64,000 bases of DNA from Thermococcus celer Vu 13 = JCM 8558 (GTDB lineage: Archaea > Methanobacteriota_B > Thermococci > Thermococcales > Thermococcaceae), in contig NZ_CP014854.1 in NCBI RefSeq assembly GCF_002214365.1, positions 930,001 through 994,000 of the forward strand, written 5' to 3'. Every line of letters begins with the position of its first letter. Position 1 is the stretch's first letter. The position numbers and the translations under genes are program-made. The notes under the pieces are model-generated. The model did no database searches and was not told the DNA's origin. It saw nothing but the letters and a program-made list of their open reading frames with translations. Below, piece after piece: positions 14,712 through 30,370 of the stretch.

Positions 14712-15712
14712 AAAGATTAAAACAATTAGTGCCTTCTCTTCTTTTTATTTTTCTATTGCTGGTTCCCGCAGTCGGCGCCACCCTGCCGTGGCTTAAGGAG
14801 GGAACCTACGCCAGGTACGCGCTCCTTGAACCCCCCGGCGGGCCGAGCCATGTGAAGGACCTTTACTTCTTTGACCTATATCCAGAGCGGCTTTCCCCCG
14901 CGGTTCGGGAGGGGGTCCTGGACTACCTGAGCAACGATTCGCCCTGGAGAAAGGACGGCTTCCCCTTCGTGACGGGGGACTGCACGGAGGTCTTCTTCGG
15001 GTTCCGGATCTTAGAGGTCGAGGGCGGGACGGCGCTCCTAAACGTCAGCTTGACCTTCGTGAACGCCACTATAGAGGGCGATTACCACCACATAATCCCA
15101 AACCTGACCGTGTGGAAGGTGTTAAAGCTGAACCTCACGGACATGACCTACTACGAGAACGGAACTCCCGTCGGGAAGGCCACCCTCTTCGTGGACCCGT
15201 CGAACCCGCCGGAGCCGGGGGAGTTTCTGTTCAGGCTGGAGGGTCTCTCCGATGAGGTCAACGTCACCGTCGGGAACGTCACCTACAGCGCCTACGGCAA
15301 CGACACGGTTCTGACCTATTACCGACCCTTCGGGCCACCGCGGATAGGTGTAAAGACGGGGGAGTTCTACTTCAGCGACGCCGGCAGGAACTGGTCCATA
15401 TCGGGCGGCGGGAGCGAGGAGTACACCTACGACTTCCTCACGGGGGTTATGATAGCGGGGTCCTTCATGCATTCCACGGAGCTGATGGCCATCGGGATCT
15501 TCCGCGTCGACGACTTCGACAGGAGGATCCGTGGGAGATCGGAGGATGGGGTCTGGCCCGACGGCATCAAGCTGTACGATACCAACATCCGGTTTCCGGA
15601 CAAAAACGGAGGCTCGTTCCCGGACAGCCCCTGGAGGTACTACCTCTACTCGGGAACACTGGCGCTCCTTGTCTCCGCTGGATTGAGGTGGTGGAAGAAT
15701 GGGCACGCTTAA
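14708..15712 (+). CDS. Membrane-anchored surface glycoprotein of an ABC module, unknown family
   Basis: A 334-residue protein with a signal peptide (LLFIFLLLVPAVGA), a long extracellular domain with many N-glycosylation sequons (NVSL, NATI, NLTV, NLTD, NVTV, NWSI) and a C-terminal membrane helix (YSGTLALLVSAGL) before a short basic tail. It shares 4 bases with the gene before and 14 bases with the permease after, so it belongs to the operon. It may be an extracellular receptor or a scaffold for the ABC system; that is inference. Confidence 0.6.
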   Translation: MKRLKQLVPSLLFIFLLLVPAVGATLPWLKEGTYARYALLEPPGGPSHVKDLYFFDLYPERLSPAVREGVLDYLSNDSPWRKDGFPFVTGDCTEVFFGFRILEVEGGTALLNVSLTFVNATIEGDYHHIIPNLTVWKVLKLNLTDMTYYENGTPVGKATLFVDPSNPPEPGEFLFRLEGLSDEVNVTVGNVTYSAYGNDTVLTYYRPFGPPRIGVKTGEFYFSDAGRNWSISGGGSEEYTYDFLTGVMIAGSFMHSTELMAIGIFRVDDFDRRIRGRSEDGVWPDGIKLYDTNIRFPDKNGGSFPDSPWRYYLYSGTLALLVSAGLRWWKNGHA

Positions 15713-16478
15713 AACCCAGCTGAAATGGGAACTGAACGATCCGCTGACGCTCACCGTTTTCCTGTTCGGGTTTCTGATGACCGGAATCGCGTTCGTGAGG
15801 GACGCCCTCAGGATGGGCGCGGTGGGGATGCTCAACCCCTTCAATCCAGAATCGGCGGTTCATTACGCCACCATGATCCCAAAGCTTGCCCTTCCCGGCG
15901 TCTCACAGGAGGCCTACAGCGTCCTGGTCTTCGTCGCGGTGATGCTCTCAAGCCTCTCCATAAGGGGCGATATCGATTCCCTCGCCGCCCTCACCGTTTA
16001 CTCCCTTCCCATTAGGAAGTGGAAGCTCTTCACCGTTAAGTTCACCTCGACCTTCCTGCTGACGCTCCTGTCCTTCGTGCTGCCCTATTTCCTCGCCCTC
16101 GGATACGTTCTCTCGGGCTCCCCAGCCCTCTTAACCGGGATTCTCGGGGACGGTGTCTGGATCAACGTCCTCGCCTTCCTTCTGATGACGGTCTTCTACA
16201 CCATCTCGGTCTCGCTTTTCGTGGCGGTGCTCTCACCAAATTCCTTCGCCGCGATACTGGGCGGTCTGACCGTGCTCTACGTTCCGGTTATCCTCGGAGT
16301 ATCGAGTCTCCCACCCTTCAACATCTCGGGGGCAATGTCCTCGTACCTGACGGCGGTCGCCTACGGAATGGAGCACGCGGGCAGTCCCTACGCGGGCGTC
16401 GTCAGGGTTGGGTTCTTCGTCCCGTCGATACTGCTGGCCGCCTCGATGATCATCAGCGAAGGGAGGGACGCCAGATGA
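15699..16478 (+). CDS. ABC-2-type transporter permease
   Basis: A 259-residue protein with six predicted membrane helices and the ABC-2 pattern: an N-terminal cytoplasmic LKTQLKWELNDPLTLTVF, a DSLAALTVYSLPIRKWKLFTVKF coupling region after the second helix, and later paired helices. It would form the channel of an exporter together with the ATPase at 16921. It overlaps the genes on both sides (14 and 4 bases). Confidence 0.8.
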   Translation: MGTLKTQLKWELNDPLTLTVFLFGFLMTGIAFVRDALRMGAVGMLNPFNPESAVHYATMIPKLALPGVSQEAYSVLVFVAVMLSSLSIRGDIDSLAALTVYSLPIRKWKLFTVKFTSTFLLTLLSFVLPYFLALGYVLSGSPALLTGILGDGVWINVLAFLLMTVFYTISVSLFVAVLSPNSFAAILGGLTVLYVPVILGVSSLPPFNISGAMSSYLTAVAYGMEHAGSPYAGVVRVGFFVPSILLAASMIISEGRDAR

Positions 16479-16924
16479 AGCGGTTCACCCTCTTTTTCCT
16501 GCTCGGCCTGTTCCTCTTCACCCTCGGCACCATCTTCGTTCCATACCATCAGGGAACGAATTCAACCGCCTCGGGCTTCCTCAGCGGAAACGGCTCTTCC
16601 ACATCCCTCTTCGTTCCCACCGCAAGGAGGGTGGCGGTGAGCATCGTGACGGCCAACAGCGGGAAGTACAGCGTCCTCGTCTTCGATGGAACGAGGGGGA
16701 GGTTCATAGCCAACCTCACCGCGATGGGGAACATGTACCGGGAGGTTGAGCTTCCGGATTCCGGGACTTACTACTTCGTCTACCGCGGGAACGGCACGGC
16801 CAGGATAGCGATAAGAACGATATCCACCTATCCATCGGAGCGGGTGCTCAGCGTAGAGTACGTAAGCGGCGGGACCCTGGCCTTTCTCCTCGCCGCCCTG
16901 ATATGGCGGGGGGTGAGACGGTGA
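16475..16924 (+). CDS. Two-helix membrane protein with an extracellular beta domain
   Basis: A 149-residue protein with an N-terminal helix (TLFFLLGLFLFTLGTIFV), an extracellular segment with NSTAS, NGSS and NLTA sequons, and a C-terminal helix (GTLAFLLAALIW). The middle part (ARRVAVSIVTANSGKYSVLVF, then DSGTYYFVYRGNGTARI) looks like a beta sandwich. It sits between the permease and ATPase genes with 4-base overlaps, so it is probably an accessory subunit. Unknown family. Confidence 0.6.
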   Translation: MKRFTLFFLLGLFLFTLGTIFVPYHQGTNSTASGFLSGNGSSTSLFVPTARRVAVSIVTANSGKYSVLVFDGTRGRFIANLTAMGNMYREVELPDSGTYYFVYRGNGTARIAIRTISTYPSERVLSVEYVSGGTLAFLLAALIWRGVRR

Positions 16925-17595
16925 TAGTGAGGGCAAAGAAACTGACCAAGCGCTTCGGCAGCGTCGTCGCCCTCGATTCCGTTGACCTTGAGATCCCGGG
17001 GGGTCTCACAGTGGTGGTGGGCCCCAACGGGGGAGGGAAATCGACGTTCATGAAGATTGCAACCGGCGCTTACAGGCCCAGCGGCGGGTGCATAGAGGTC
17101 CTGGGGAAGGATCCCTGGCGGGACGAGGGAGTAAAGAAGCGTCTGGGGGCCTCCTTCGATCCGCCTGCGCTACCCCCGTTAAGAACCGGGAGGGAGTGGC
17201 TGGAGTACGTATCCGAGGCGAGGGGCGGGAACGGACGGGACGTCACGGAGGCCGCGGAGACCTTCGGGATCGAGGGGTTCGTGGACAAGAGGGTGAGGGA
17301 TTACTCCGCCGGGATGAGGAAGAGGGTCAGCCTTGCCCAGGCTTTCGTCGGAGACCCGGAGCTGGTTTTCCTGGACGAGCCGCTGGCGAACCTCGACCTC
17401 GAGGGCATGAAGAACGTCGTTGGGGTTATTCAAAGAAAGCACGAGGAGGGCCTTAACCTCGTCGTTATCTCCCACATCTGGCGACCCTTCCTGGAGATGG
17501 CGGATTACGCCGTCTTCATAGCCGCGGGAAGGGTTCAGGCTTCGGGCGATCCGGACGAGGTTCTTCCGCTGATCGAGGGAGCCTTCCCGCTGTGA
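16921..17595 (+). CDS. ABC transporter ATP-binding protein
   Basis: A 224-residue nucleotide-binding domain. Walker A is GPNGGGKST, with Gly in place of the more usual Ala. The signature is YSAGMRKRVSLAQAF, Walker B is ELVFLDEPLANLD and the H-loop is VVISHI. The start is the GTG at 16921, which overlaps the previous stop (GTGA) and has GGGGTGA upstream; the ATG at 16903 is less likely. It pairs with the permease at 15699 to power export or gliding of an unknown substrate. Confidence 0.88.
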   Translation: MIVRAKKLTKRFGSVVALDSVDLEIPGGLTVVVGPNGGGKSTFMKIATGAYRPSGGCIEVLGKDPWRDEGVKKRLGASFDPPALPPLRTGREWLEYVSEARGGNGRDVTEAAETFGIEGFVDKRVRDYSAGMRKRVSLAQAFVGDPELVFLDEPLANLDLEGMKNVVGVIQRKHEEGLNLVVISHIWRPFLEMADYAVFIAAGRVQASGDPDEVLPLIEGAFPL

Positions 17596-17605
17596 GGTGG
17601 TGGAG

Positions 17606-19249
17606 ATGAAAGGGGGTGCGATCCTCATCGGGGCGATGCTCCTGCTGTCCATAGTGGCCGGTGCCGCTGGTGCGGTTTCGGGGGGCGGTTACGGAATACT
17701 CATCGTGGACTCCAGCTCGAGCGTCCTCATCCCTGAGAAGGGACTGAACTTCACGGCGCCGGCGTGGGTGAAGCTTCCGGCCTTAAAGGACGGTGAGAGT
17801 TACACCGTTATAACGAGGGTAAACGGCATGGAGGTAAAGATCCCGGTTAGGGTAAAAGAAGGGCTGACCACGATAGTCAAGCTGGACGAAAAGGGGATTA
17901 TGAAGGCCATCATATCAGAGGGCGCCGACCCCTCTGAACTGGAGTTCGGGGAACCCGTTACCCTCCCACCGAAACTCCCGGATTCGGGCTGGGTACCGAA
18001 ATGCGGTGTGTCAACCTACGGCCCCGTTGAGGGCAATGGACCACCGTTTGAGGTCGTGAAGGTTTACGGTGAACCCGACTACGTACTGCTGTTCAACGGC
18101 ACCCCCATCAGGGTGTGCGATGAGTACGAGATGGACGAGATCAGGGCTCACGACGACGGCTGGGCGATGGTGGGACACCGGCTCAACTGGACCAGCTACG
18201 TCCCGGATTACATGAGGGTCGAATTGAACTCGGAGCCCCGGGATTCCGCGGTTTTGATCTTCGGGGCGAGCCTCATAGTGCTTAGAACTCCCCTGACCCT
18301 CTCGTTACCCGTAATCAACGAGAGCGTCCACGGATACGGCTTCGATTTCACAGGGGACCGGGTGGATTTCGAGGTAAAACCAATAAAAGAGTACCCCATA
18401 ACCGTCGCCTCGAACATCACCTCTTCCAATGGCCTCGCTCCCCGCGTGAGCTTCATCGTGAACCCCGCCCCGGGAAGGAGGGCCAGGATAAGCGTCAACT
18501 TCACCGGGATTCTCAATGCCGTAAGCCTAAGGGCCGTGTACGGGATACCACCGGAGTACAGGAACCTTCCCAGCGGGATGGAAGAAACCCCCGGAGGAAC
18601 CCCGCAGAGTAACGGGAAGGCAGAGGGGGACACCGAAAACGAAACCGTCGTAACCCCAACACCCGAGAACGCGACGCTCGTGATCGAGACTCACCCGGAA
18701 GAAGTGGAGGTTTACGTGGATGGAGAGCCAGTTTGCAGGGGCGGTTGTACTTTGAACCTCACCCCCGGAGAGCACGGGGTCGAGGGGCGGGCCAAGGGTT
18801 TCGTGAAGTGGAGCAAAAGAGTGGTGCTCTCACCGGGCGAGCGTGTAAACCTGAACATAACCCTGTTGCCCTATCCGAGGTTCCGCGTGGTTTCGGTGCC
18901 CGAGGGGGCGGAACTTTTCGTCGATGGAAAACCCTCTAACTGCACCACCCCCTGCAACCTCACCCTCACCCCGGGAACTCACGAGCTGGTCTTCAAGAAG
19001 GAGGGTTTCAGGGATTACAGAACCGAGGTTGAGGTTCACGCGGGGGACGGCGGGGTCATAACCGTGTCGCTGACCGACCTGAGCGGCAGAAAATACTCTC
19101 TGGACCCCAGGCTAAGGGGAGGAAACCGGGGCGAAGAGGCCTGGGAGGAAAGAACTACGGGAAGGCTCCCGTTATCTTCCACAACAGCCTACGTGCTCGG
19201 GGGAGTCCTGATCCTCGGAGCCGCTCTGCTGGTCGCCCGAAAACTTTGA
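17606..19249 (+). CDS. PEGA-domain surface protein with C-terminal membrane anchor
   Basis: A 547-residue exported protein. It has an N-terminal signal (ILIGAMLLLSIVAGAAGAV), a large beta-rich extracellular region with many Asn sequons, a Pro/Thr linker near residue 350, and two tandem PEGA domains: VYVDGEPVCRGGCTLNLTPG and LFVDGKPSNCTTPCNLTLTPG, each with a Cys pair. It closes with a membrane helix and a short basic tail (AYVLGGVLILGAALLVARKL). PEGA domains are found in surface proteins and may bind cell-wall or S-layer material. It ends the ABC operon, with its start 10 bases after the ATPase stop. Confidence 0.78.
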   Translation: MKGGAILIGAMLLLSIVAGAAGAVSGGGYGILIVDSSSSVLIPEKGLNFTAPAWVKLPALKDGESYTVITRVNGMEVKIPVRVKEGLTTIVKLDEKGIMKAIISEGADPSELEFGEPVTLPPKLPDSGWVPKCGVSTYGPVEGNGPPFEVVKVYGEPDYVLLFNGTPIRVCDEYEMDEIRAHDDGWAMVGHRLNWTSYVPDYMRVELNSEPRDSAVLIFGASLIVLRTPLTLSLPVINESVHGYGFDFTGDRVDFEVKPIKEYPITVASNITSSNGLAPRVSFIVNPAPGRRARISVNFTGILNAVSLRAVYGIPPEYRNLPSGMEETPGGTPQSNGKAEGDTENETVVTPTPENATLVIETHPEEVEVYVDGEPVCRGGCTLNLTPGEHGVEGRAKGFVKWSKRVVLSPGERVNLNITLLPYPRFRVVSVPEGAELFVDGKPSNCTTPCNLTLTPGTHELVFKKEGFRDYRTEVEVHAGDGGVITVSLTDLSGRKYSLDPRLRGGNRGEEAWEERTTGRLPLSSTTAYVLGGVLILGAALLVARKL

Positions 19250-19258
19250 GCTCTCTTT

Positions 19259-19729
19259 TTATCCCATTCCCCCGAACACCCCCAGCGCCGGGAGCACCGT
19301 TATCCCCATGCTGAGCACTCCGCCGAGGATCAGCGCCGGAATCGTCTGCCCCTTCTCGATGCCGAGGAGGTAGGCCGCCAGAGCCCCCGTCCAGACGCCG
19401 GTTCCGGGGAGGGGAACCGCCACGAAGAGCGTCAGCCCGATGAACCCCCACCTCTCAACGTAGGGATGGGCTTTCCTCCTCACGCGCTCGACGTAGTGGA
19501 GGTAAAGCCCCGCAACCCGGTCCAGGGGGGTCCCCTCGAGCCAGAGCATGAGCCTGTCTATGTAGGGCAGAACAGCCGGAAGGAGGAGCGAGAGGAGCAG
19601 GACGCCGAGGGAGGCAACCGCGAGGGTCCCCCAGAGTGGATAGCCCCTGCCTATGCCGTAGACGATGGCGTAGCGTCCCTCGAACGTGGGAACCAGCGAC
19701 AGGACGAAGACCTCGAGGAGGTTATTCAA
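19259..19729 (-). CDS. Small multidrug-export-like membrane protein (COG2426)
   Basis: A 156-residue integral membrane protein. The pattern LSLVPTFEGRYAIVYGIGRG at the start and GFIGLTLFVAVPLPGTGVWTGALAAYLLG in the middle is diagnostic of the COG2426 family, once called small multi-drug export proteins. These have two re-entrant PxPG-like motifs, and transport activity is not established. It overlaps the end of the PAP2 gene by 8 bases on the same strand, so the two are co-transcribed. Confidence 0.82.
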   Translation of the reverse strand: MNNLLEVFVLSLVPTFEGRYAIVYGIGRGYPLWGTLAVASLGVLLLSLLLPAVLPYIDRLMLWLEGTPLDRVAGLYLHYVERVRRKAHPYVERWGFIGLTLFVAVPLPGTGVWTGALAAYLLGIEKGQTIPALILGGVLSMGITVLPALGVFGGMG

Positions 19730-20372
19730 CGTCCAGCACCCCCAGTCTGAGCTTTTTGATTACGGCTCTATACCACGGAAGCCACGCGCTCTCCGTGTAC
19801 TCGACCAGCATGAAGACCCACGGCCCGAGGAGCAGGCCGAAGAGGACGTCGCTGAACCAGTGAACGTGGAGGAGGAGCCTTGAGAAGGCTATCCCTATCG
19901 CCCAGCCCCACCAGAGTGGCCAGAGCCTTCTCCAGCGCCGGCTCAGGAAGTAAGCGAGCACCGCGGCCCTCGTCGTGTGGCCCGAGGGAAAGGCGAAGTA
20001 GTCGGCGTTCTTCAGCGATTCGAGGAGGCCCCAGTGAACCCCGGCCTCTCCGGGGCGGGGAACGCCGGTTAGAACCTTCAGCAGGCCGACCACCAGCATG
20101 GCGACGATGAGACTGAGGATTAACTCGAGGGTGGGCCTGCTCAGCTTGCCCCCTTTTACAACGTCCCACAGGAGGAAGGCGAGGACGTAGAGGGCAACCG
20201 CGACAAAACTCGCCGTATCGGTGAGGAGATGGACAAAAGAGCCTCCTGAGGGAAGAACCAAGTCTACCCAAGTATCAATGCCATTGAAACGCCTAACCCA
20301 TTCAGCAAGAAGCAGGAAAATTATAAGAGCCGTGAATGCCAGTATAGCCCGATATTTGGCGCTTTTACTCAT
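19722..20372 (-). CDS. PAP2-family lipid phosphatase (hybrid gene with a replaced 5' end)
   Basis: A 216-residue membrane phosphatase. The three PAP2 motifs are present: KVLTGVPRP, PSGHTTRAAV and SRLLLHVHWFSD. The family dephosphorylates phosphatidate or polyprenyl pyrophosphate at the membrane. The first 40 codons (MSKSAKYRAIL...WVRRFNG) are AT-rich and differ from the orphan 5' end at 24208-24314, while 86 bases beginning at the PSGGSFVHLL region are identical to that fragment. The gene therefore appears to be a chimera made by insertion of a 4-kb island. The ATG at 20372 overlaps the upstream gene's stop. Confidence 0.85.
   Translation of the reverse strand: MSKSAKYRAILAFTALIIFLLLAEWVRRFNGIDTWVDLVLPSGGSFVHLLTDTASFVAVALYVLAFLLWDVVKGGKLSRPTLELILSLIVAMLVVGLLKVLTGVPRPGEAGVHWGLLESLKNADYFAFPSGHTTRAAVLAYFLSRRWRRLWPLWWGWAIGIAFSRLLLHVHWFSDVLFGLLLGPWVFMLVEYTESAWLPWYRAVIKKLRLGVLDVE
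20171..20256. repeat. 86-bp direct repeat, left copy (within PAP2 gene)
   Basis: This block, from GGAGGAAGGCGAGGACG to GAGGGAAGA, recurs exactly at 24122-24207 in the same orientation, 3951 bases away. It codes for part of PAP2 on the minus strand. Beyond 20256 the two copies diverge but still encode homologous PAP2 N-terminal residues. Confidence 0.95.
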
Positions 20373-20649
20373 TCTTTCTGCCCCCCTTAGTGACCACTGC
20401 GACAAAGAACAGGGCTATCACCAAGAACTCCATGAACTTTGTAATGAGATCCAAGGTGGTGTTTTCTATATTCGGCAGGACTATGTCCATGTGCTCCACG
20501 AGCTCCTTTACCGCATAAAGCAGAAACGCGAACGACACTATAAGGAACTTTCTAAGTCTTGTATTCTGGTATGCGATTAGTGAGGCGCCAGTAAGAATAA
20601 GTGAGAATGCAACAATGCCAAGGCTCAAGAGTTGTTCTATATCCAGCAC
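20365..20649 (-). CDS. Small three-helix membrane protein
   Basis: A 94-residue protein with three hydrophobic segments (LGIVAFSLILTGASLIAY, FLIVSFAFLLYAVKEL and FMEFLVIALFFVAVV) and a short Lys/Arg-rich tail. The start is the GTG at 20649, because GGAGGGGGTGAT sits four bases ahead. It is translationally linked to the regulator upstream (stop to start 1 base) and to PAP2 downstream (8-base overlap). Such three-helix proteins often accompany archaeal winged-helix regulators. Function unknown. Confidence 0.65.
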   Translation of the reverse strand: MLDIEQLLSLGIVAFSLILTGASLIAYQNTRLRKFLIVSFAFLLYAVKELVEHMDIVLPNIENTTLDLITKFMEFLVIALFFVAVVTKGGRKNE

Positions 20650-20650
20650 T

Positions 20651-21184
20651 TTAATCACCCCCTCCAAACTCCATAAATATGTCCACGATCCTATCCGCCC
20701 ACCTCTCGAGCAGACTCGGATAATAGTTCTGAATCAGCTTGATAAAGAGCTCAGCATCCCCCGTAAAGTAGTATTTCACAAATTTTCCATCCTTTATGGA
20801 TCGAACGAGGTGCAACTTCTCTAGCTTATCGACATAATAATTGACTGTGGGCGCAGAAAGATCCAGCTCATCACACAGCTCCTTCTGGGTAACCCCTGGC
20901 TTTGTTATCATAAACATTACTATCCCCCTTAAGTTCTCACTGGACAATAGTGTCAAGACGTCCTTTTCACTTTCATCGAAGATACCAACCGGAAAGTAGT
21001 GCCGCTTTAACCCACTTCTCCTTGAGGTGATCAATCCGAGCTTCTCCAGCCTGTGGACGTGATACTGAAGATCGCCTTTGGCCAGACCAAGTCTTCGAGA
21101 TAGCTCGTTGAAGTTTAAGCCAGGATTTTCTTTGATGAATTCGAGCACGAGCTTGGTACGTTCATTGAGTCTTCCGCTACTCAT
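20651..21184 (-). CDS. Tandem winged-helix transcriptional regulator
   Basis: A 177-residue cytoplasmic protein with two winged-helix domains. The first is residues 8-65 (GLNFNELSRRLGLAKGDLQYHVHRLEKLGLI) and the second about 75-150 (GVTQKELCDELDLSAPTVNYYVDKLEKLHLV). This resembles archaeal regulators of membrane and surface genes. ATG at 21184 follows AAGGAGA. It heads the minus-strand operon with a membrane protein and PAP2 and is divergent from the PepSY gene, so it probably controls one or both sides of the island. Confidence 0.82.
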   Translation of the reverse strand: MSSGRLNERTKLVLEFIKENPGLNFNELSRRLGLAKGDLQYHVHRLEKLGLITSRRSGLKRHYFPVGIFDESEKDVLTLLSSENLRGIVMFMITKPGVTQKELCDELDLSAPTVNYYVDKLEKLHLVRSIKDGKFVKYYFTGDAELFIKLIQNYYPSLLERWADRIVDIFMEFGGGD

Positions 21185-21591
21185 AGTTCTCCTTGGATAC
21201 GTATGCCCTGACTCTTAATTAAGGTTTTGTGGTTCAGTTTTAGAAGTGTTCTTAGGGTGGTATTGGCTTTATTACCTTTTGAAAGCCTCGTCCTTTGGGG
21301 CGGGGATTCATTAAACTACCCCGATAACCATCGAACAATCAAAACTAAACTCTTGTGAGTCTTGCCAACATAATAACACTTCAAAGAGGCCACCCGACGA
21401 GACGACCACCGGCTGTTAAGCCCATCGTTAAGCGATTGAAAACTCTGCCTCGAACCGCAAAGGAGAGGAGTAAGGTAGATTAAGACCCGACATTTCAAAA
21501 AGTGAACCAATACTTCGAGAATTGAGCCAGAAGGGATATATAATAGCTTACTCACGTATTAAACTGAAGAACTTGAAGGGGGTGATAAACC
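21185..21591. other. 407-bp gap between divergent genes
   Basis: No credible gene is visible. The minus-strand promoter area is CTTAATTAAG near 21215-21225. The plus-strand gene has the TATA-like GGATATATAATAG (21534-21546). Between them is low-quality coding-like sequence in several frames with stops, and a GC-rich hairpin at 21287-21306 that looks like the right end of an IS200/IS605-type element. A degenerate insertion-sequence remnant is the likeliest content. Confidence 0.4.
21287..21306. mobile_element. Possible IS200/IS605-type right-end hairpin remnant
   Basis: CCTCGTCC-TTTG-GGGCGGGG forms an 8-bp stem (two G-U pairs) with a 4-base loop, followed by ATTC. Similar hairpins ending GCGGGGATTC close TnpB-carrying elements in archaea. 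No intact transposase is present and I cannot define a left end, so this is a relic at best. Confidence 0.3.
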
Positions 21592-22104
21592 ATGAGGATA
21601 TGGAAATTCAGCATTGGTCTGAAAACTGCTGCAGTAATAGCGGCACTGATAATGGCAGTGAGCATTGGAGCGTTTGCAACGGCGGCATCAAACACAACCA
21701 CTAGTCCTGTACAAGGTGACTATCAGTCACCCAACTACATTGGCAGCATAAAGGTTACCGATAGGGGATTGAACGAAACCCAGGAGGCAAAAACCCTCCA
21801 GAGTCTGGCAGGTATAACCCCACAGCAGGCCAAGAGCGCCGCACTTTCAAAGGTAAAAGGAAGCGTAATCAAGGTTGAGCTGGACAACGAGAATGGATAC
21901 CTTGTCTACTCCGTGGAGGTCAAGGCAAGCAATGGAATTATCAAGGATGTAAAGGTCGATGCAGGCGACGGAAAGGTGCTCTACATAGACAGCGGAAATG
22001 ACAGAGAAGGAGAGGATAGCAAAGAGATAGAAACCGGCACCTCTACAGACTTGACCGACTCCGATAGCATAAATGAGGAGGTTTCACAGGGGAGTGAGGA
22101 CTGA
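21592..22104 (+). CDS. Secreted PepSY-domain protein
   Basis: A 170-residue exported protein: an N-terminal signal (IGLKTAAVIAALIMAVSIGAFA), then a PepSY domain (ITPQQAKSAALSKVKGSVIKVELDNENGYLVYSVEVKASNG, ending in KVDAGDGKVLYI) and a highly acidic Ser/Thr/Asp/Glu tail without a second anchor. PepSY domains inhibit proteases or sense outside signals. The ATG follows GGGGGTGATAAACC and a clear TATA box. It is divergent from the winged-helix regulator, and its codons are more AT-rich than the flanking chromosome. Confidence 0.8.
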   Translation: MRIWKFSIGLKTAAVIAALIMAVSIGAFATAASNTTTSPVQGDYQSPNYIGSIKVTDRGLNETQEAKTLQSLAGITPQQAKSAALSKVKGSVIKVELDNENGYLVYSVEVKASNGIIKDVKVDAGDGKVLYIDSGNDREGEDSKEIETGTSTDLTDSDSINEEVSQGSED

Positions 22105-22184
22105 ATTCTCCTTTCATTTTTTATATCGAGTTAACGGTTTGAGAAGTATGAACTTTCGAGGAGACAAAAGTGAGATGAAGGAAC

Positions 22185-23057
22185 ATGATGGATATCAGCA
22201 CATACACTGCAATCATCCGCTCCCTGGATAACAAGAGTCTGGAGCTTTTGGGGATAGCGCTGGCTTTGTATTATACAAGCACCCTCATATATGCTCTCCG
22301 CTGGAAAATAGTGCTCGCAGGGATGGGGAGAGACCTTCCCCTGCTGGACCTTCTGAAGGTAACCCTCTCATCGATTTTTGTAAACAACGTGACCCCCATG
22401 AGCAGGGGAGGCGGGGAGATACTTAGGGTTACATGGGTCTCAAAGAAGCACCAGATACCCATAGCACTATCAACCATAAGCATTGTTTATGAGAGGATTG
22501 TGGAGATAGTTCCCGTGATGTTTTTGCTCCTGCTGGGTATCACATACTTTGCAGCCCAGGTACTGTCAATCGCGGCTCTATTCATGCTTTTCATCCTTCT
22601 CATATGGCTCAAGTGGGAGGAGTTCATAAGGATATCCGTGAAGATCCTGAAGATACAGCTCACACAGGAGGAGCTGCTTAAAATAAGTGAACTAAAGAGA
22701 AAACCTTCTCTGAACATCCTGGCGGTGGGTTTAAGCTCGATGGTGTGGATTCTGGACATTGCACGCCTCAAGCTCATAGCCCTTGCATTTGGATGGGATC
22801 CCAACATCGGGCTCCTTGCATTGATATCCCTGGCCAACCTGCTCTTCGGGTTGATGGCATTTACACCCGGGGGGGTGGGCATAGTGGAGGGAGGACTCTT
22901 CGGCACGCTCACATATTTTGGGATCCCCTCCACACTCGCCATCTCAGTGACCCTGATAGAGCGCTTTATTTCCTATGTCCTGAGCACCATAGTGGGTTTT
23001 CTCGTGTTAATAGGTTCGGGAGGGGTTGAGTTATGGAAAGCTTTAAAATCGCATTAG
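22185..23057 (+). CDS. Flippase-like membrane protein (UPF0104 / LPG-synthase membrane-domain family)
   Basis: A 290-residue protein with seven or eight membrane helices. The pattern YYTSTLIYALRWKIVLAGMG at the start, then NNVTPMSRGGGEILR and FTPGGVGIVEGG, matches the UPF0104 family related to the membrane part of lysylphosphatidylglycerol synthase and AglD partners. Such proteins are thought to move or present glycosylated lipids. ATG at 22185 or 22188. It overlaps the start of a glycosyltransferase by 24 bases, which supports a joint role in a surface glycolipid. Confidence 0.8.
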   Translation: MMDISTYTAIIRSLDNKSLELLGIALALYYTSTLIYALRWKIVLAGMGRDLPLLDLLKVTLSSIFVNNVTPMSRGGGEILRVTWVSKKHQIPIALSTISIVYERIVEIVPVMFLLLLGITYFAAQVLSIAALFMLFILLIWLKWEEFIRISVKILKIQLTQEELLKISELKRKPSLNILAVGLSSMVWILDIARLKLIALAFGWDPNIGLLALISLANLLFGLMAFTPGGVGIVEGGLFGTLTYFGIPSTLAISVTLIERFISYVLSTIVGFLVLIGSGGVELWKALKSH

Positions 23058-24200
23058 CTTCGGATTGGTTCTTTCCGAGTGTTGGAGGTATAGAATATCA
23101 CATCCATGATCTGGCCACGCATCTGGCCATGAGGGGGTCATGAAGTTCATGTGATAACGAGATTCGGGGATTTCCCCGATGAGGAGCTCCCCTATGAAGT
23201 TCACCGGTTCAGGGGGAGAATAACCATAAACAGCTTCCATGTGAGCGTCGGTACCGGCATGTTGAGAGAGGTGAATGAACTCTACAAGAAGGAGCATTTT
23301 GACATAACCCACGGACACAGCATATATTCACCCATAGCGGTGGGCGTCTCAAATCTTTCGAGCGGAATAAGGGGGACTCCAAGTCTGATAACGAACCACT
23401 CCCTCCTCGGGAGCTCCATGCTGAATCCCGCATACACCGCAATACTGAGGCTGTCCCTCCGCAAGGTTAACTCTTTCATAGCTGTTAGCGAAGCTGTCGA
23501 GAGGGATTTACGCTCCATTCTTGGAAAAAGTTTGAAGGGCAGGGCCACTTATGTCATCCCCAATGGCATAGATACGGAGTTCTGGAAGCCCGCAGAGGAC
23601 GGGGAGACGTGGAAGGAGAGGATGGGCATGAAGGGTCTGGTTGTAACGACCACTTCGAGGCTGACGAAGAGGAAGAGGATACACGTTATCCCAAAGATTG
23701 CAAGGATCATGAAGAGGGAGTACGGAGGGGATGTGACCTTTTTGATAATTGGAGACGGTCCCGAAAGGAGAAACATAGAGAACCTGATCAGGAGTTACGG
23801 TGTTGGGGATGTCGTTAAGCTCGTTGGGAGGCAGCCAAGGGAAAAGGTGAGGGATTATCTGCAGGCAAGTGACCTCTATCTTTCACCCACCATATACGAG
23901 GCATTCGGGATAGCTGCCCTTGAGGCTTTGGCTTGCGGTGTCCCCGTTGTCGCCAACAACCACGGGGGCATAAGTGAAATTGTCGAGCACAGCAGAACAG
24001 GGCTGGTTTCCCAGGATGATTCCGGGCTGGTGCAGAATTTAATATCTCTGATTTCCGATGAAGAGAAGAGAGAAGAAATGAGCAGAAATGCAAGGGAAAG
24101 CGTGAAAAATCGTTTTAACTGGGAGGAAGGCGAGGACGTAGAGGGCAACCGCGACAAAACTCGCCGTATCGGTGAGGAGATGGACAAAAGAGCCTCCTGA
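23034..24200 (+). pseudogene. Glycosyltransferase family 4 gene, frameshifted and cut at its 3' end
   Basis: ATG at 23034 opens MESFKIALASDWFFPSVGGIEYH, the GT4 N-terminal motif, and stops after MRGS. One G too many in the run 23133-23137 shifts the frame; the next frame gives GHEVHVITRFGDFPDEE and a normal GT4 body with VIPNGIDTEFW, VGRQPREKVRDYL and SPTIYEAFGIAALEALACGVPVV. After FNWEE (about 24129) homology stops, where the 86-bp repeat begins, so the final 15-20 residues of a normal GT4 are replaced by antisense PAP2 sequence. Inactive or altered unless the G-run is a sequencing error. Confidence 0.8.
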
Positions 24201-24207
24201 GGGAAGA
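24122..24207. repeat. 86-bp direct repeat, right copy
   Basis: Identical to 20171-20256 in the same orientation. On the minus strand it continues an orphan PAP2 5' end (24208-24314). On the other side it abuts the truncated glycosyltransferase. It marks the right junction of the island. Confidence 0.95.
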
Positions 24208-24314
24208 GCCGAGCTCACCCATCCGTCTATTTCGGTTAACGCACCGGTGACCTCGAGGGCCAGCAGGGCGATGATAGTGAGGGTCAGGATGATGACTTTA
24301 CCTTCAAACCTCAT
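24122..24314 (-). pseudogene. Orphan 5' fragment of a PAP2 phosphatase gene
   Basis: ATG at 24314 follows AAGGTGCC and encodes MRFEGKVIILTLTIIALLAL, then EIDGWVSSALPSGGSFVHLL, TDTASFVAVALYVLAFL, which is the start of PAP2. Homology ends at 24122; the frame then reads antisense to the glycosyltransferase. Its high GC content fits the surrounding chromosome. This is most likely the original 5' end of the PAP2 gene whose remainder is now at 19722-20256. Confidence 0.85.
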
Positions 24315-24352
24315 GGCACCTTAGAGGACGAAGCCGGTAAAAAAGCTTTTCC

Positions 24353-24934
24353 TCAGATGATCCCCGCCCCGTAGAGCGCATGATACGTCTTGAGGAGCGC
24401 TTGATGAACCCTCTTCGGCCCGAAGGTCCTCACCGCCTTCCCGAGACCCTCGTTGTACACCCTCCGCAGGATGAAGTCGGTCTCGCGGCTTAGGTTGAGC
24501 CTTTCCCTGTTCTCGAGGTAGAGGCGCGCTATCTCGCCCGGCTCGCGGTAGTTCAGGCCCTTCAGCCACTTGAGGGGAATCCCGTCCTCGAGGCGCTTCA
24601 CGACCTCGAAGCCTATCACCGTAACCTCGTCGTCACCGTGGAGTTCACCGTATATTCGGTTGAGCTCCCGCAGGAGTTCCTTAACGTCTGAAAAGCCGTC
24701 TCTCCTTGCGTCTTCGTTGGTGAGTTCTCTGACCGTTTTCTTCTCGACGCGGGTTATCCGAACCTTCGCCACCGCGGTGTCGCTCGGCGTGAGGACGAAG
24801 TAGACCTCGCTCCCCGGCCTCGCCTCGTAGTCCCCGTAGCGTATCGTGGTGACCTTATCGCCACGCAGGACCCTCGACTTGTAGGTGGAGTCAATCAGCA
24901 TGAACTTCCTTATCTGAACGCTCTTCCTCCTCAA
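24353..24934 (-). CDS. ASCH-domain protein
   Basis: A 193-residue cytoplasmic protein. Residues 10-95 show the ASCH (PUA-like) pattern: [25 protein letters not shown], the strands [10 protein letters not shown] and [16 protein letters not shown], and TVIGFEVV. The C-terminal 80 residues are helical and basic. The fold suggests binding of RNA or a modified nucleotide; no specific role is known. A TTG start at 24934 is weakly supported by GGGGGG upstream; the ATG at 24901 is an alternative. It overlaps the end of the HAD gene in either case. Confidence 0.75.
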
Positions 24935-25619
24935 GGTTCAGCCCCCCGACTATGTTGAGGACGTCCTCAAGCCGCTCAACCGTGAAGTCCGCGTGGTCGA
25001 GGTACTCCAGCTCCCTGTCGGCGTACTTGCCGTACCTGAACCATATCGTGTTCATCCCTACCCTCTTGGCGCCGTAGATGTCCGAGTAGAGCCTGTCGCC
25101 GACCATCACAGCCTCCTCGGCTTTGACGTTCATCTTCCTCAGGGCCTTCTTGAATATCTTCGGATGAGGCTTCTTGACGCCGAGGTAGTCGGATATGAAG
25201 ACGCCGTCGAAGTAGTCGTCGAGGTCGAGGCGGATTATCTTCTCCCACTGCTTTATCGGGTCCCCGTCGGTGATGATACCCAGCCTGTAGTCGGCCTTCT
25301 TCAGCTCGAGGAGGAGCCTTCTCGCACCGTGAACGGTCTTCAGGTAGGCGAACTTCGTGTTGTGGTAGGCCACCACGCCCGCGGCGACCCACTTGGGGTT
25401 GTTCGGGAGGTCGAGCCGCCGGAGGAGGTAGTCGAAGTGCCTGGAGAAGTTGCTCCCGTACTCGTTTATCAGCTCGAGGAGCTCCCCGTAGGCGGTTTCA
25501 AAATCAACCGGGAGGCCGTGGCGTATCATGTTCTCCACGGCGTTCCGCCTCGCCATCTCCGCCAGTTTGCTCGTGTCGACGAGCGTATCGTCAAGGTCGA
25601 AGAAAACAGCCTTTATCAT
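24891..25619 (-). CDS. HAD-family hydrolase (haloacid-dehalogenase type)
   Basis: A 242-residue protein with all four HAD motifs: [10 protein letters not shown] (nucleophile and acid Asp), [19 protein letters not shown] (Lys) and [17 protein letters not shown] helical cap lies between motifs I and II. It probably dephosphorylates a small metabolite. It overlaps the ASCH gene downstream by up to 44 bases. Confidence 0.88.
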
Positions 25620-25653
25620 CCGCTCACCCGTGACCTATTGCCCTTTAACTTAT

Positions 25654-26064
25654 TTAACCCTTGCCGATGTCGAGGAAGGGGCCCGTTTTCTTTTTGGCCT
25701 CCTTCCGCGCCCAGCGCATGGCCTGAAAGTACTCGTCCTCCGCCATGAGCTCCTCGAGCAGATCTTTGAGCTTCCAGCCGAGGGAGTTCTCGGTCGTCGT
25801 CGCGAATATCACCCTCCCGAGCCGAAGCGACTTAACGGAGCTGATGACGTGCTTTATCGTCTCGTTGTCGACCCCGTCCATTATCACGAACTTCCTCTGA
25901 TGCCAGTCACTCGGGCCGTTCAGCGTTTCGGCCCTTTCGAATATCTCGCTCACCAAGCACTCCTTGCAGTCCTCCGGAACCCCAAAGGCAGGTATCCTGA
26001 GGGCTTCACGGAGCATCTCCATTTCCCCGGGCGTGAACCCGATCACTATGGCCTTTCCATTCAT
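25654..26064 (-). CDS. DUF3783-like protein
   Basis: A 136-residue cytoplasmic protein, [20 protein letters not shown], with a [11 protein letters not shown] segment and a central [18 protein letters not shown]. It resembles DUF3783 proteins of unknown function; the C-terminal [15 protein letters not shown] and the basic tail fit. Its ATG overlaps the end of the Sir2 gene by 4 bases, so it is co-translated with Sir2. Confidence 0.65.
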
Positions 26065-26816
26065 TCTACCATCCTCCCGATCCTTTCCATCAACCTCTCC
26101 ATGGCCTCCCCGGCGGGATAACGGAGGAAGACGTCGGCAATAGGGGTGATTCCACTCTCCTCCGGGTTTATCTCGATAACCCTTCCGCCGGTTTCCTTGA
26201 CTATCTGGGGAATGTAAGCGGCCGGGTAGACCACCCCGCTCGTCCCGATGACGAGGACAACGTCCGCCCTCTCGGCGAGCCTGAAGGCCTCCTCAAGGGC
26301 TTCCCGCGGTAAAGGCTCCCCGAACCACACCACGTCGGGTCTCAGGAGGGAGCCGCATTCTGGACACCTCGGGAGGCCTTTCTCTTTCAAAAACTCGTTC
26401 AGGCGTCCGCTCCTTTTCAGGTCTTCCGTATAACCGCAGGAGGTGCACCTCACCCTGAAGATGTTGCCGTGGAGCTCGATGACGTTTTGGCTTCCCGCCT
26501 CGCGGTGGAGGTCGTCAACGTTCTGGGTTATCACGGCTTTAACGATGCCCATCCTCTCGAGCTCCGCCAGGGCTCTGTGGGCCCTGTTGGGCCTGGCCCT
26601 CATTATCAGCTTCATGCGCCACCTGTAAAACTCCCAGACGAGATTTGGATCTTTCCTAAAGGCCTCCGGGGTTGCGAGCTCCTCAGGACGGTACTTCTTC
26701 CAGAGCCCACTGCCTCCCCGAAAGGTCGGGACGCCGCTCTCGGCGCTTATCCCCGCACCGGTGAAGGCTATGGCGAACCTCGAACGGGCCAGCAGTTTGG
26801 CGGCCTCCTCCATCAT
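26061..26816 (-). CDS. cobB: Sir2-family NAD-dependent protein deacylase
   Basis: A 251-residue sirtuin. Signatures are [18 protein letters not shown], the NAD-binding [13 protein letters not shown] with the catalytic His in IELHGN, a zinc-binding CTSCGY...CPECGS set, and [12 protein letters not shown] with INPEESG. The Ala/Tyr/Arg set ([13 protein letters not shown]) of class III sirtuins is consistent with desuccinylase as well as deacetylase activity. Start at 26816 or the next ATG at 26813. It heads an operon with DUF3783. Confidence 0.93.
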
Positions 26817-26963
26817 GCTTTCGGCTACTCGGCGTTCCTTAAAAATTCTTCCCGGGGTTGAGGTCTCAAAGGGGTTACACCGAAGGATCTTTGGGTGGGC
26901 CTTCGCGTTTCCGTGCGAGGGTTTAAATTGTGTTCATGAATACATCCTATCGGAGGTGAGAGC

Positions 26964-28148
26964 ATGCCCGTTTCGGAGGGGGTTAGGAGGGAGAGGGTTG
27001 CAACCTCACACGGGAGGTACTACCAGGCGAGACTCTCAGCTCAGAGGCGCAAGAAGCTCACCGTCATCCAGAACATCAGGAAGAGGAAAGGGGTCAGGGG
27101 CATACGCACGAACATAATAACCGTGGAGAAGCCGCGCATAACGAAGGGAGAGGCGCTCGCCATACTCGTGGGGACTCAAATAGGTGCAGGCGTCCTGGGA
27201 CTGCCGTACGCGGCGAGCAAAGTCGGCTTAATCCCGGCTCTGGGGGTCCTCACCGGAGTAATGCTCCTAATGCTCGGGACGGCCTTCATAGTGCTCAGGT
27301 TCAGCGCCGGGATGGGCGGTGCCCAGATGAGCACAATCGCAGGAAAAACGCTCGGAAGGGCCGGCGGCTGGCTGATGTACCTCAGCGTGAGCCTGATGAG
27401 CTTCGGGGCGATACTCGCCTACATAGCAGGTATGGGCAACGTCTTCGCGAGCCTCTTCGGCGTCAGCGAGACGGTGGGGGCGGCGATATTCTGGGTTCTC
27501 GCTTCCATCGTCGTTTACAGGGGACTCGAGGCGAGCGGAAAGACCGAGCTGGTGCTGAGCTACATTATGCTGTTCCTCTTCGTGGCGGTCACGGCCATGC
27601 TCCTTCCCCATGCGGAACCCGAGAGGGCCCTCTACGTGAGGTGGAGCGGGCTCCTCAGCATAACCGGCGTCTCAATCTTCGCCCTCGGTTGCCACACCAT
27701 AATCCCCGACGTCTACAAGGGGCTCGGTAGCTATAAGGAGGCAAAGAGGGTGCTCGTGCTGGCTTTCCTCATACCAACGGCGCTCTACGCGGTTTTCATG
27801 GCCTCCTTCCTGCTGGTCTTCGGAACGGAGACGCCCCAGGTGGCCACGCAGGCCCTCGAGCTGATATACGGGAAACCCGGCTGGCTCGTTGGCAACCTCA
27901 TACCCCTGCTCGCCATCACGACGAGCTTCATAGGGATCGCACTGGCCCAGCAGAGCAACAACGAGGAGTTCGCGAAATTGGGCAGAGAATGGGCGTGGGC
28001 CCTGACGGTCATCCCGCCGGCGGCGCTCTACTTCGCTGGAGTCAAGAACTTCGCCGACGTCTTGGCTTTCGCCGGCGACACGGGTGACATGATGGCGTTC
28101 ATAGTGCTCCCGGTGCTGATGTGGCTGGCCTCGAGGCTCAGGAGGTGA
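26964..28148 (+). CDS. Aromatic amino acid permease-family transporter
   Basis: A 394-residue membrane protein. After a long basic cytoplasmic N-terminus (about 50 residues) come eleven helices, the first with VGTQIGAGVLGLPYAASKVG, typical of the amino acid/polyamine/organocation superfamily and close to the Mtr/TyrP branch. SIFALGCHTIIPDV and QQSNNEEF fit the branch. It brings an amino acid into the cell with a cation. ATG at 26964 follows GGAGGTGAGAGC; a TATA-like GTTTAAATTG lies at 26921-26930. Confidence 0.82.
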   Translation: MPVSEGVRRERVATSHGRYYQARLSAQRRKKLTVIQNIRKRKGVRGIRTNIITVEKPRITKGEALAILVGTQIGAGVLGLPYAASKVGLIPALGVLTGVMLLMLGTAFIVLRFSAGMGGAQMSTIAGKTLGRAGGWLMYLSVSLMSFGAILAYIAGMGNVFASLFGVSETVGAAIFWVLASIVVYRGLEASGKTELVLSYIMLFLFVAVTAMLLPHAEPERALYVRWSGLLSITGVSIFALGCHTIIPDVYKGLGSYKEAKRVLVLAFLIPTALYAVFMASFLLVFGTETPQVATQALELIYGKPGWLVGNLIPLLAITTSFIGIALAQQSNNEEFAKLGREWAWALTVIPPAALYFAGVKNFADVLAFAGDTGDMMAFIVLPVLMWLASRLRR

Positions 28149-28220
28149 ACCCTCCCGTCTTTTTCTTTTATTGCCCTACTACGATGCACGTTTCTGAACG
28201 CGTGCACAGATGAGGTAAGG

Positions 28221-28228
28221 TTTATATC
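28221..28228 (+). promoter_or_regulatory. TATA box of glyA
   Basis: TTTATATC lies 34-41 bases ahead of the ATG at 28262, with GAGGTG in between. Confidence 0.5.
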
Positions 28229-28261
28229 CTCCCCGTTCAAATCCTCATCGAGGTGTTTCCC

Positions 28262-29551
28262 ATGGCTGAAGGATACAGGGACTATCGCGACAGGGTTCTG
28301 AACTTTATAGAGGAGCACGAGAACTGGAGGAGCCACACCATAAACCTCATAGCGAGCGAAAACGTCACCTCGCCGAGCGTTAACCGCGCCGTGAGGAGCG
28401 GCTTCATGCACAAGTACGCCGAGGGCTGGCCGAAGCAGAGGTACTACCAGGGCTGCAAGTACGTCGACGAGGTCGAGCTCATAGGCGTCGAGCTCTTCAC
28501 CAAGCTCTTCAAGAGCGATTTCGCCGACCTAAGGCCGATCTCAGGAACCAACGCCAACCAAGCGGCGTTCTTCGGGCTCACCCAGGCCGGCGATAAGGCC
28601 ATAGTCCTCCACACCAGCCACGGCGGGCACATAAGCCACATGCCCTTCGGCGCCGCCGGGATGCGCGGTCTGGAAGTCCACACCTGGCCCTTCGACAACG
28701 AGGAGTTCAACATCGACGTTGACAAGGCCGAGAAGCTCATCCGTGAGCTCGAGCCAAAGGTAGTCGTCTTCGGCGGCTCGCTCTTCCCGTTCCCGCACCC
28801 GGTCAAGGAGCTCGCCCCCGTAGCCAAGGAGGTCGGGGCCTACGTCATGTACGACGCCGCCCACGTCCTCGGTCTCATCGCCGGAAAGCAGTTCCAGGAC
28901 CCGCTCCGCGAGGGAGCGGACGTAATCACCGCCTCGACCCACAAGACCTTCCCCGGGCCACAGGGCGGTGTTATCATCTACAAGCGCTTCGGCGAGACCG
29001 AGGAGATAGCCAGGCTCCAGTGGGCCATCTTCCCGGGGGTGCTCAGCAACCACCACCTCCACCACATGGCGGGGAAGGTTATCACCGCCGCGGAGATGCT
29101 CGAGTACGGTGAGAGGTACGCGGCCCAGATAGTGAAGAACGCGAAGGCCCTCGCCGAGGCTTTAGCGGAGGAGGGGTTCAAGGTCATCGGCGAGGACAAG
29201 GGCTACACCGAGAGCCACCAGGTCATCGTGGACGTCTCGGACCTTCACCCGGCCGCGGGTGGCTGGGCGGCTCCCCTGCTCGAGGAGGCCGGCATAATCC
29301 TCAACAAGAACCTGCTCCCGTGGGACCCGCTCGAGAAGGTCAACGAGCCGAGCGGCCTGCGCATAGGCGTCCAGGAGATGACCCGCGTCGGTATGCTTGA
29401 GGACGACATGAAGGAGATCGCTAAATTCATCCGTCGCGTCCTCATCGACAAGGAGGACCCGAAAAAGGTCGAGCGCGACGTCTTCTACTTCAGGCAGAAC
29501 TTCCAGAGGGTCTACTACTCCTTCGACTACGGCCTTCCGATGAAGGAGTGA
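28262..29551 (+). CDS. glyA: Serine hydroxymethyltransferase
   Basis: A 429-residue PLP enzyme that interconverts serine and glycine with a pterin cofactor. Landmarks are HTINLIASENVTSPSV, YAEGWPKQRYYQGCKYVDEVE, LRPISGTNANQAAF, YDAAHVLGLIAG and the PLP-lysine motif ADVITASTHKTFPGPQGG. The length is normal for the archaeal form, which uses a modified folate. The ATG at 28262 is favoured over the in-frame GTG at 28253 because GAGGTG covers that codon. Confidence 0.96.
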   Translation: MAEGYRDYRDRVLNFIEEHENWRSHTINLIASENVTSPSVNRAVRSGFMHKYAEGWPKQRYYQGCKYVDEVELIGVELFTKLFKSDFADLRPISGTNANQAAFFGLTQAGDKAIVLHTSHGGHISHMPFGAAGMRGLEVHTWPFDNEEFNIDVDKAEKLIRELEPKVVVFGGSLFPFPHPVKELAPVAKEVGAYVMYDAAHVLGLIAGKQFQDPLREGADVITASTHKTFPGPQGGVIIYKRFGETEEIARLQWAIFPGVLSNHHLHHMAGKVITAAEMLEYGERYAAQIVKNAKALAEALAEEGFKVIGEDKGYTESHQVIVDVSDLHPAAGGWAAPLLEEAGIILNKNLLPWDPLEKVNEPSGLRIGVQEMTRVGMLEDDMKEIAKFIRRVLIDKEDPKKVERDVFYFRQNFQRVYYSFDYGLPMKE

Positions 29552-29724
29552 CGATTTCCGTTCTTTTTTCAATTTTGGCACATAGTAATTGAGATTTTTC
29601 CAGCGTTCATTGGGGATTTTTCCAAAAACCGGGTTATAAACTGGGCCGTTTCCATTTTTTAAAGTCGCGTATCGGATTCTATTTCAGAAAGAGTTATAAA
29701 AGAGCTCATCCATGCTCATAAGAC

Positions 29725-29789
29725 GGTGTTTGGCCGCCTTAGTCATACATCACTGTGCCATTAACGGCCGGACACCGCGGTGGGTGTCC
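29725..29789 (+). ncRNA. Candidate structured RNA or 5' leader with two competing hairpins
   Basis: GGTGTTTGGCCG (29725-29736) pairs over 12 bp, with two G-U pairs, with CGGCCGGACACC (29765-29776). The last seven bases of the second arm, GGACACC, pair perfectly with GGTGTCC (29783-29789) around a 6-base loop. The two stems cannot exist together. A TATA box at 29694-29701 puts transcription start at about 29721-29726. No known class (C/D box, H/ACA, known riboswitch) was recognised. Confidence 0.45.
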
Positions 29790-29851
29790 ATGGAATAAGG
29801 GACTCAAATCAGGGGATTAAATAAGCGGCTAAACTCACTTCAACCATTTTA

Positions 29852-29879
29852 CTTCAATCCCTTTTGAAGTTTTGGCAAC
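29852..29879. repeat. Solitary CRISPR-repeat-like sequence
   Basis: CTTCAATCCCTTTTGAAG followed by TTTTGGCAAC resembles the reverse orientation of Thermococcales CRISPR repeats (CTTTCAATTC...TTGCAAC). There is only one copy and no cas gene nearby. ACTTCAA and TTGAAGT within it also form a 7-bp hairpin, so it could simply be a regulatory hairpin. Confidence 0.25.
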
Positions 29880-29920
29880 CGTTAAGAAGGTTGAAACCAA
29901 TTTTCCATCGGGGAACCGCC

Positions 29921-30370
29921 ATGAGGAGGATAATTCCGGTCCTGCTGATAGTTCTGCTGGTTCCGCTTGGATACTACATGGCATCGAGCGGTGGAAACGG
30001 AAGCAAAGGGTCCCAGAACCTTCAGGATAGCGAGGGAATCGTCCTGGAGCTCGGAAAGAGCGTCTACTCCACCAAAGACGTGATGACCCTCACGGTCGTC
30101 AACAACGCCAAGACCAACGTCACCACCGGCTACCACTTCAGGCTCTACAAACTGGAGAACGGAGAGTGGAAGGAGCTCAAGCTCGACCTCATGTTCGTGG
30201 AAATAGCGGTCGTAATTAAACCCGGTGGGAGCTGGGAACAGAGGATAGACCTCTCCAGGCTCAACCTTGAACCCGGACACTACAGGATAACGAAGAGGGT
30301 CTCCCTGGACTCACCGGCCGGGAACGCCATCAGCAAGGAGGTTGGGGCGGAGTTCGACGTGAGGGCTTAG
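29921..30370 (+). CDS. Exported Ig-like-domain protein
   Basis: A 149-residue protein with an N-terminal hydrophobic anchor (IIPVLLIVLLVPLGYYMASS) and an extracellular beta sandwich: IVLELGKSVYSTKDVMTLTVVNN, then TTGYHFRLYKLENGEWKEL, PGGSWEQRIDLSRLNLEPGHYRITK. This resembles Ig-like domains found in small bacterial and archaeal surface proteins that may bind other proteins. It lies downstream of the structured RNA segment, which may be its 5' leader. No lipobox cysteine is visible. Confidence 0.68.
   Translation: MRRIIPVLLIVLLVPLGYYMASSGGNGSKGSQNLQDSEGIVLELGKSVYSTKDVMTLTVVNNAKTNVTTGYHFRLYKLENGEWKELKLDLMFVEIAVVIKPGGSWEQRIDLSRLNLEPGHYRITKRVSLDSPAGNAISKEVGAEFDVRA

Follow-up and report, generated by a model that had tools for sequence, protein, structure and literature searches.

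The window analysed here, a stretch of 64,000 nucleotides from Thermococcus celer Vu 13 = JCM 8558 (contig NZ_CP014854.1, positions 930,001 to 994,000), was found to carry a block of low G+C content within a PAP2 phosphatase gene, bounded by an exact direct repeat of 86 bp with copies at 20171..20256 (in frame within PAP2) and 24122..24207. The arrangement was probably produced by one-sided homologous integration into an uninterrupted host locus in which PAP2 lay beside an ASCH-domain gene, either through a trimmed circle and a single crossover or through a template switch. The PAP2 5′ end stranded to the right of the block is of host type and rejoins cleanly to the gene, and the 5′ end now attached to the left copy is of cassette type, with a sharp drop in identity where it stops; one junction is therefore homologous and lies inside PAP2. 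At the other, between 24121 and 24122, a glycosyltransferase gene is truncated and the NodB gene which follows it in relatives is dropped, which on sequence comparison marks this junction as illegitimate.

The repeat and the lower G+C content of the block had been noted in the original prediction, and a repeat search and a composition profile agree with it. Within 18000-26500 the search for direct repeats of at least 20 nt returned a single family, 20171-20270 and 24122-24221, with 95% identity over 100 nt; comparison of the printed copies by eye showed the first 86 nt of both to be identical. The G+C content is 62.3% in the PAP2 3′ part (19725-20170) and 58.1% in the 86 bp, then 45.6% in 20257-20405 and 43–50% across the rest of the block, returning to 55.1% in 24208-24314 and 58.3% farther right, so that the shifts in base composition fall at the same positions as the edges of the repeat and the block. 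The G+C content of the 86 bp was considered as a test of origin and dropped, the same segment in a relative (G028; G numbers denote the compared Thermococcaceae genomes and G000 that of T. celer) also being GC-rich beside a GC-poor 5′ end. A scan of 19000-25500 against Rfam (E up to 1) returned just two weak snoRNA-type matches below gathering scores, which were set aside.

The PAP2 gene at the left junction (19722..20405, minus strand, Pfam PF01569, likely ATG near 20370) is a true hybrid, with a host-type 3′ part up to ~20256 and a cassette-type, donor-type 5′ part from 20257. In codon alignments the 5′ part (20257..20369, minus strand) is 85.0% identical to G074 and 85.8% to G079, compared with 74.4 and 73.3% for the 86-bp segment and 73.8 and 73.1% for the entire 3′ part. 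In 25-nt bins against G074, identity is 88–96% at 20276-20350 and falls to 64% at 20226-20250, though it is again 88% at 20201-20225. The switch near 20256 is sharp and in homologous codon register. Among 253 pairs of the same PAP2 type, conservation is usually far lower in the 5′ part than in the 3′ part (mean difference −19.0, standard deviation 8.9), whereas the differences for G000-G079 (+12.7) and G000-G074 (+11.2) are the second and third highest. That the 5′ part is so unusually close to these two genomes compared with the 3′ part identifies the left PAP2 as a hybrid with its switch near the repeat edge. The original prediction had also held the hybrid gene to be functional, and this may be so, because the catalytic motifs, as read from the PAP2 consensus, all lie in the 3′ part. 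The membrane protein gene to the left (19259..19729, minus strand, DedA/Sm_multidrug_ex-like, Pfam PF06695) is a constant neighbour which adjoins PAP2 in carriers of the cassette and empty sites alike.

To the right of the block, the second repeat copy runs, as had been claimed, into an orphan PAP2 5′ end (24208..24314, minus strand, start at 24314) which adjoins the ASCH-domain gene (24353..24934, minus strand, Pfam PF04266), the constant right neighbour. Over 107 nt the orphan shares 69% identity with G011 and 67% with G096, and the spacer between it and the ASCH gene likewise matches G011. The different but homologous 5′ end joined to the left copy is 36% identical to the orphan in a gap-free comparison. 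When 20256 was joined to 24208 in silico, one open reading frame free of stops was obtained.

The GT4 glycosyltransferase gene which ends at this junction (23033..24121, plus strand) is broken in two ways. A frameshift near 23140, within a run of G residues, ends its N-terminal fragment (23033-23143) and may reflect either genuine decay or a homopolymer or sequencing error. The gene is then cut ~43 codons early at 24121 and fused to antisense PAP2, relatives having intact genes of 407 amino acids. At this joint the glycosyltransferase gene and host PAP2 show no homology; donor and host may have had three to five bases in common there (GGA or GGAGG). The 86-bp copy abuts the joint directly, a duplicated homologous arm lying at an illegitimate junction. 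In relatives the cassette continues past the position of the repeat, where the end of the glycosyltransferase gene and NodB are missing here.

The distribution of the cassette was assessed by a DNA search of 61 genomes with gene mapping and by winged-helix, flippase and PepSY searches of 94 genomes of the family. The cassette lies beside DedA-PAP2 or ASCH in at least 13 of the 94, seven of them at the same PAP2-ASCH locus (both counts including G000); the 13 are a lower bound, weaker flippase matches not all having been mapped. In G028 and G029 the interval from PAP2 to ASCH holds these genes with order and orientation unchanged, and in G030 an eroded set. The winged-helix search added G074, G079, G111, G113, G095 and G081, and the flippase and PepSY searches added G088, in which the cassette adjoins ASCH at the edge of a contig; partial cassettes stand beside DedA-PAP2 in G061 and G063. 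Complete copies run on into the NodB deacetylase gene and several also into a TauE-like gene before ASCH.

The layout of the locus was examined in 46 genomes besides G000. An empty site, with PAP2 28–235 bp from ASCH and no cassette gene between them, was found in 34, and a whole or eroded cassette between the two genes in five (G028, G029, G030, G074, and G081), with G088 and its copy next to ASCH as one more. In G079, G111, G113, G061, and G063 the cassette lies away from ASCH or ASCH was not seen, and G095 has a cassette with its own DedA-PAP2 ~3.3 kb before a native DedA-PAP2-ASCH. Two loci show signs of decay: a degraded PAP2 lies beside ASCH in G079 (L114:6975-7433), its intact DedA-PAP2-cassette being on another contig, and a collapsed remnant consisting of flippase pieces and the NodB end lies beside PAP2 in G063 (L093:1399-1907). 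In a tree of flanking proteins, T. celer groups with the empty-site genome G018 (0.989), G028 with empty G016 (1.000), G095 with empty G020 (1.000) and G081 with empty G011, G096, and G084 (0.924). Carriers and empty genomes thus alternate, which implies repeated gain or loss. Both an empty site and other genomes with the block at PAP2 had been suggested as things to look for, and both exist, G018 being the closest genome in the flank tree. What did not hold is the view of the block as a separate island: since the cluster is an ordinary resident cassette at this locus in relatives, the comparison points to an allelic exchange involving a known local variant, the block being most of the resident cassette of the lineage. 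This colinearity and the damage to the glycosyltransferase gene go beyond the original prediction.

Pfam recovered all the named genes of the block except the small three-helix membrane protein (20365..20667, minus strand), which is nearest to DUF7471/DUF5985 at a score below the curated cut-off and is conserved in carriers. It is followed by a tandem winged-helix regulator with an HVO_0163-like N domain (20651..21184, minus strand; 64–84% identity in carriers), a PepSY-domain protein with a signal-like N terminus (21592..22104, plus strand, Pfam PF03413; present in nine of 94 genomes), and a flippase-like membrane protein (22185..23057, plus strand; LPG_synthase_TM in Pfam, TIGR00374 in NCBIfam). 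The order DedA-PAP2-DUF7471-winged helix/PepSY-flippase-glycosyltransferase-NodB is kept in T. celer except for NodB and the glycosyltransferase end. By NCBIfam, PAP2 is nearest to undecaprenyl-diphosphatase types, the glycosyltransferase to BshA and other GT4 types, and NodB groups with polysaccharide deacetylases, all below the curated cut-off; the flippase assignment is the only one not below it. Judging from these gene families, the cassette probably encodes a regulated pathway for the synthesis and transport of a glycolipid or surface glycan; with a broken glycosyltransferase and no NodB, this pathway is probably disabled or altered in T. celer. PADLOC matches of the winged helix are cross-matches of its helix-turn-helix (HTH) domain to CARF/Csa3 families and were rejected as evidence of defence. 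Among the five block proteins, just two gave PHROGs matches, the glycosyltransferase and the winged helix, the latter mostly to HTH or regulator families. Between the winged-helix and PepSY genes, outside the cassette proper, a 46-nt intergenic relic (21276..21321, plus strand) resembles the end of an IS200/IS605-type TnpB element. It matches repeated elements in many relatives, and at three of the seven loci inspected its neighbour is a gene identified by eye as TnpB-like; a second good copy was sought in the T. celer genome and none was found.

In the proposed sequence of events, a host with an uninterrupted PAP2-ASCH locus would have acquired DNA from a related Thermococcus-type archaeon with a PAP2-linked cassette. 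Pairing inside PAP2, of the RadA type as we infer, would have linked host PAP2 (to ~20256) in register to the donor PAP2 5′ end, and donor DNA would have been inserted or copied up to the 3′ end of the glycosyltransferase gene. The end of this tract would then have been rejoined, via the few shared bases, to host PAP2 at a point 86 bp short of the first crossover, doubling the host 86 bp, orphaning the host PAP2 start and losing the glycosyltransferase end and NodB. One route would be the trimming of a linear fragment, its end-joining into a circle and a single crossover. Alternatively, a template switch or inter-chromatid integration could have led to this arrangement, in which case the 86-bp copies would be exactly identical without any later conversion. 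The single-crossover insertion suggested originally stands in part: homologous recombination in PAP2 best accounts for one junction, but with the right junction illegitimate and the cassette trimmed, a single crossover with an intact circle would be insufficient without an end-joining or template-switch step. The polarity, the donor and the strand mechanics in this account are likewise what we infer.

Several observations weigh against one-sided integration in this form. The two 86-bp copies are identical, though a donor copy should differ from that of the host, so a simple circle and crossover needs later conversion. The cassette is a mosaic, with best matches to G074/G079 up to ~22100, to G095 over 22200-23500 and to G079 after 23500, so the donor would be unsampled or itself recombinant, and no sampled genome is that donor. 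In single-gene trees the winged helix joins G074/G079 at 0.393, the flippase joins G095 at 0.949 and the glycosyltransferase has no resolved place; as these trees conflict and contain some weak nodes, no donor is named. Although the orphan 5′ end resembles that of G011, the 86-bp segment of G011 is only 41% identical, so that host PAP2 may be a mosaic itself, or the 86 bp may be of non-host origin. The polarity may also have been the reverse, with a resident cassette and an incoming empty allele. Finally, the top 5′-minus-3′ difference among the 253 PAP2 pairs belongs to another pair, G007-G036 (+14.0), which is perhaps a further exchange; exchange of the PAP2 5′ end is thus not unique to the event in T. 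celer. PAP2 5′ ends more alike than the 3′ parts were seen in G007/G036, G016/G094, and G002/G036, hinting that such exchange is common across genomes.

Other origins were weighed against the same evidence. A second DedA-PAP2-cassette block might have been inserted beside the native DedA-PAP2-ASCH, after which a deletion fused the glycosyltransferase to native PAP2 and conversion equalised the 86 bp. Such a layout is seen in G095 (L068:6837-17331), where a full DedA-PAP2-cassette-NodB is followed by a 673-aa oxidoreductase-like gene (named by eye), a small gene and the native DedA-PAP2-ASCH, possibly a merodiploid intermediate, and this course accounts for the loss of NodB. It requires more steps, however, and a conversion ending near the deletion point, and neither DedA nor the 3′ part of the left PAP2 is of G074 type; it is considered unlikely. 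An artefact of assembly or a chimera at the repeat, for instance from an empty-site chromosome and a separate 3.95-kb circle, is conceivable in that 86 bp is short enough for short reads to mis-resolve, but with a single-contig genome which is 99.9% complete and two junctions which make internal sense, it appears very unlikely.

Site-specific integration of a small mobile element, with the 86 bp as attachment site and the integrase lost or acting in trans, would fit the length of the repeat, archaeal attachment sites being described as usually 40–60 bp long and, in certain Thermococcales elements, as exceeding 100 bp (PMC8371274). Such integration is nonetheless extremely unlikely here. No integrase was detected among the Pfam matches of the block, in agreement with the original prediction, no tRNA gene in 15000-30000 and no direct repeat of at least 30 nt at ten other carrier loci; searches of viral contigs with the PepSY and winged-helix alignment and of PLSDB plasmids with the flippase returned no relatives, and the extension of the cassette beyond the repeat position in relatives speaks against it as well. 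The block thus has neither the integrase nor the attachment site, in a tRNA gene or another defined target, that mark an integrase-borne genomic island, and the earlier preference for homologous recombination was largely right, for one junction. The Thermococcales elements pTN3 and pT26-2, with suicidal integrases, are likewise reported as insertions bounded by direct repeats (PMC8371274), but the T. celer block has no integrase or tRNA target and its repeat lies within a protein gene.

The closest parallels to one-sided integration are bacterial. With DNA homologous at one end, 56 of 60 Lac-minus integrants of Escherichia coli are reported to have duplicated part of the homologous arm, with duplications of 109–950 bp in the 14 sequenced, explained by trimming, recircularising and a single crossover (PMC3240628). 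The T. celer locus shares with that product, and with homology-facilitated illegitimate recombination (HFIR), one homologous and one few-base illegitimate junction with gain of foreign DNA, and with the usual E. coli product the partly duplicated arm (PMC3240628). It differs in being archaeal, in being deduced from one genome and in being an allele-to-allele rather than plasmid-derived exchange. Classical HFIR deletes recipient DNA, whereas 86 bp were duplicated here, and the event is therefore not filed under it. HFIR is cited in the same source for Streptococcus pneumoniae, Acinetobacter and Pseudomonas stutzeri (PMC3240628). Alternative pairing and inter-chromatid integration are described as able to leave a tandem duplication in S. 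pneumoniae merodiploids, in which the repeat pre-exists in the chromosome, whereas in T. celer the 86 bp were doubled during the event (PMC3784515). Compared with the PAP2-linked DUF7471/winged-helix/PepSY/flippase/GT4/NodB cassette of other Thermococcaceae, the T. celer copy has the same order, orientation and locus, but lacks NodB and the glycosyltransferase end and has the PAP2 duplication. Thermococcus kodakarensis has been described as naturally competent (PMC7137780). Among the listed titles and abstract openings of literature on HFIR, on Thermococcus transfer, recombination and pangenomes, on Thermococcales islands and on this gene combination, subscription literature being outside the scope, neither the cassette nor an HFIR-like archaeal integration was found.

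The DedA-PAP2/ASCH interval thus emerges as a variable locus in Thermococcaceae, in which carriers and empty sites are close relatives. It is a tentative and rather doubtful suggestion that the PAP2 segment serves as a built-in homology tag, by which the cassette travels through the family without a recombinase by pairing with the PAP2 of empty hosts; if true, a hybrid PAP2 which stays functional would provide a docking site that repairs itself, at which cassettes are exchanged without an integrase. The exchange itself is clear yet fairly ordinary, and the interest lies in its scar: both junctions can still be read, and they record the entry of an accessory cluster into a hyperthermophilic archaeal chromosome via a shared neighbour gene and not via a mobile element.

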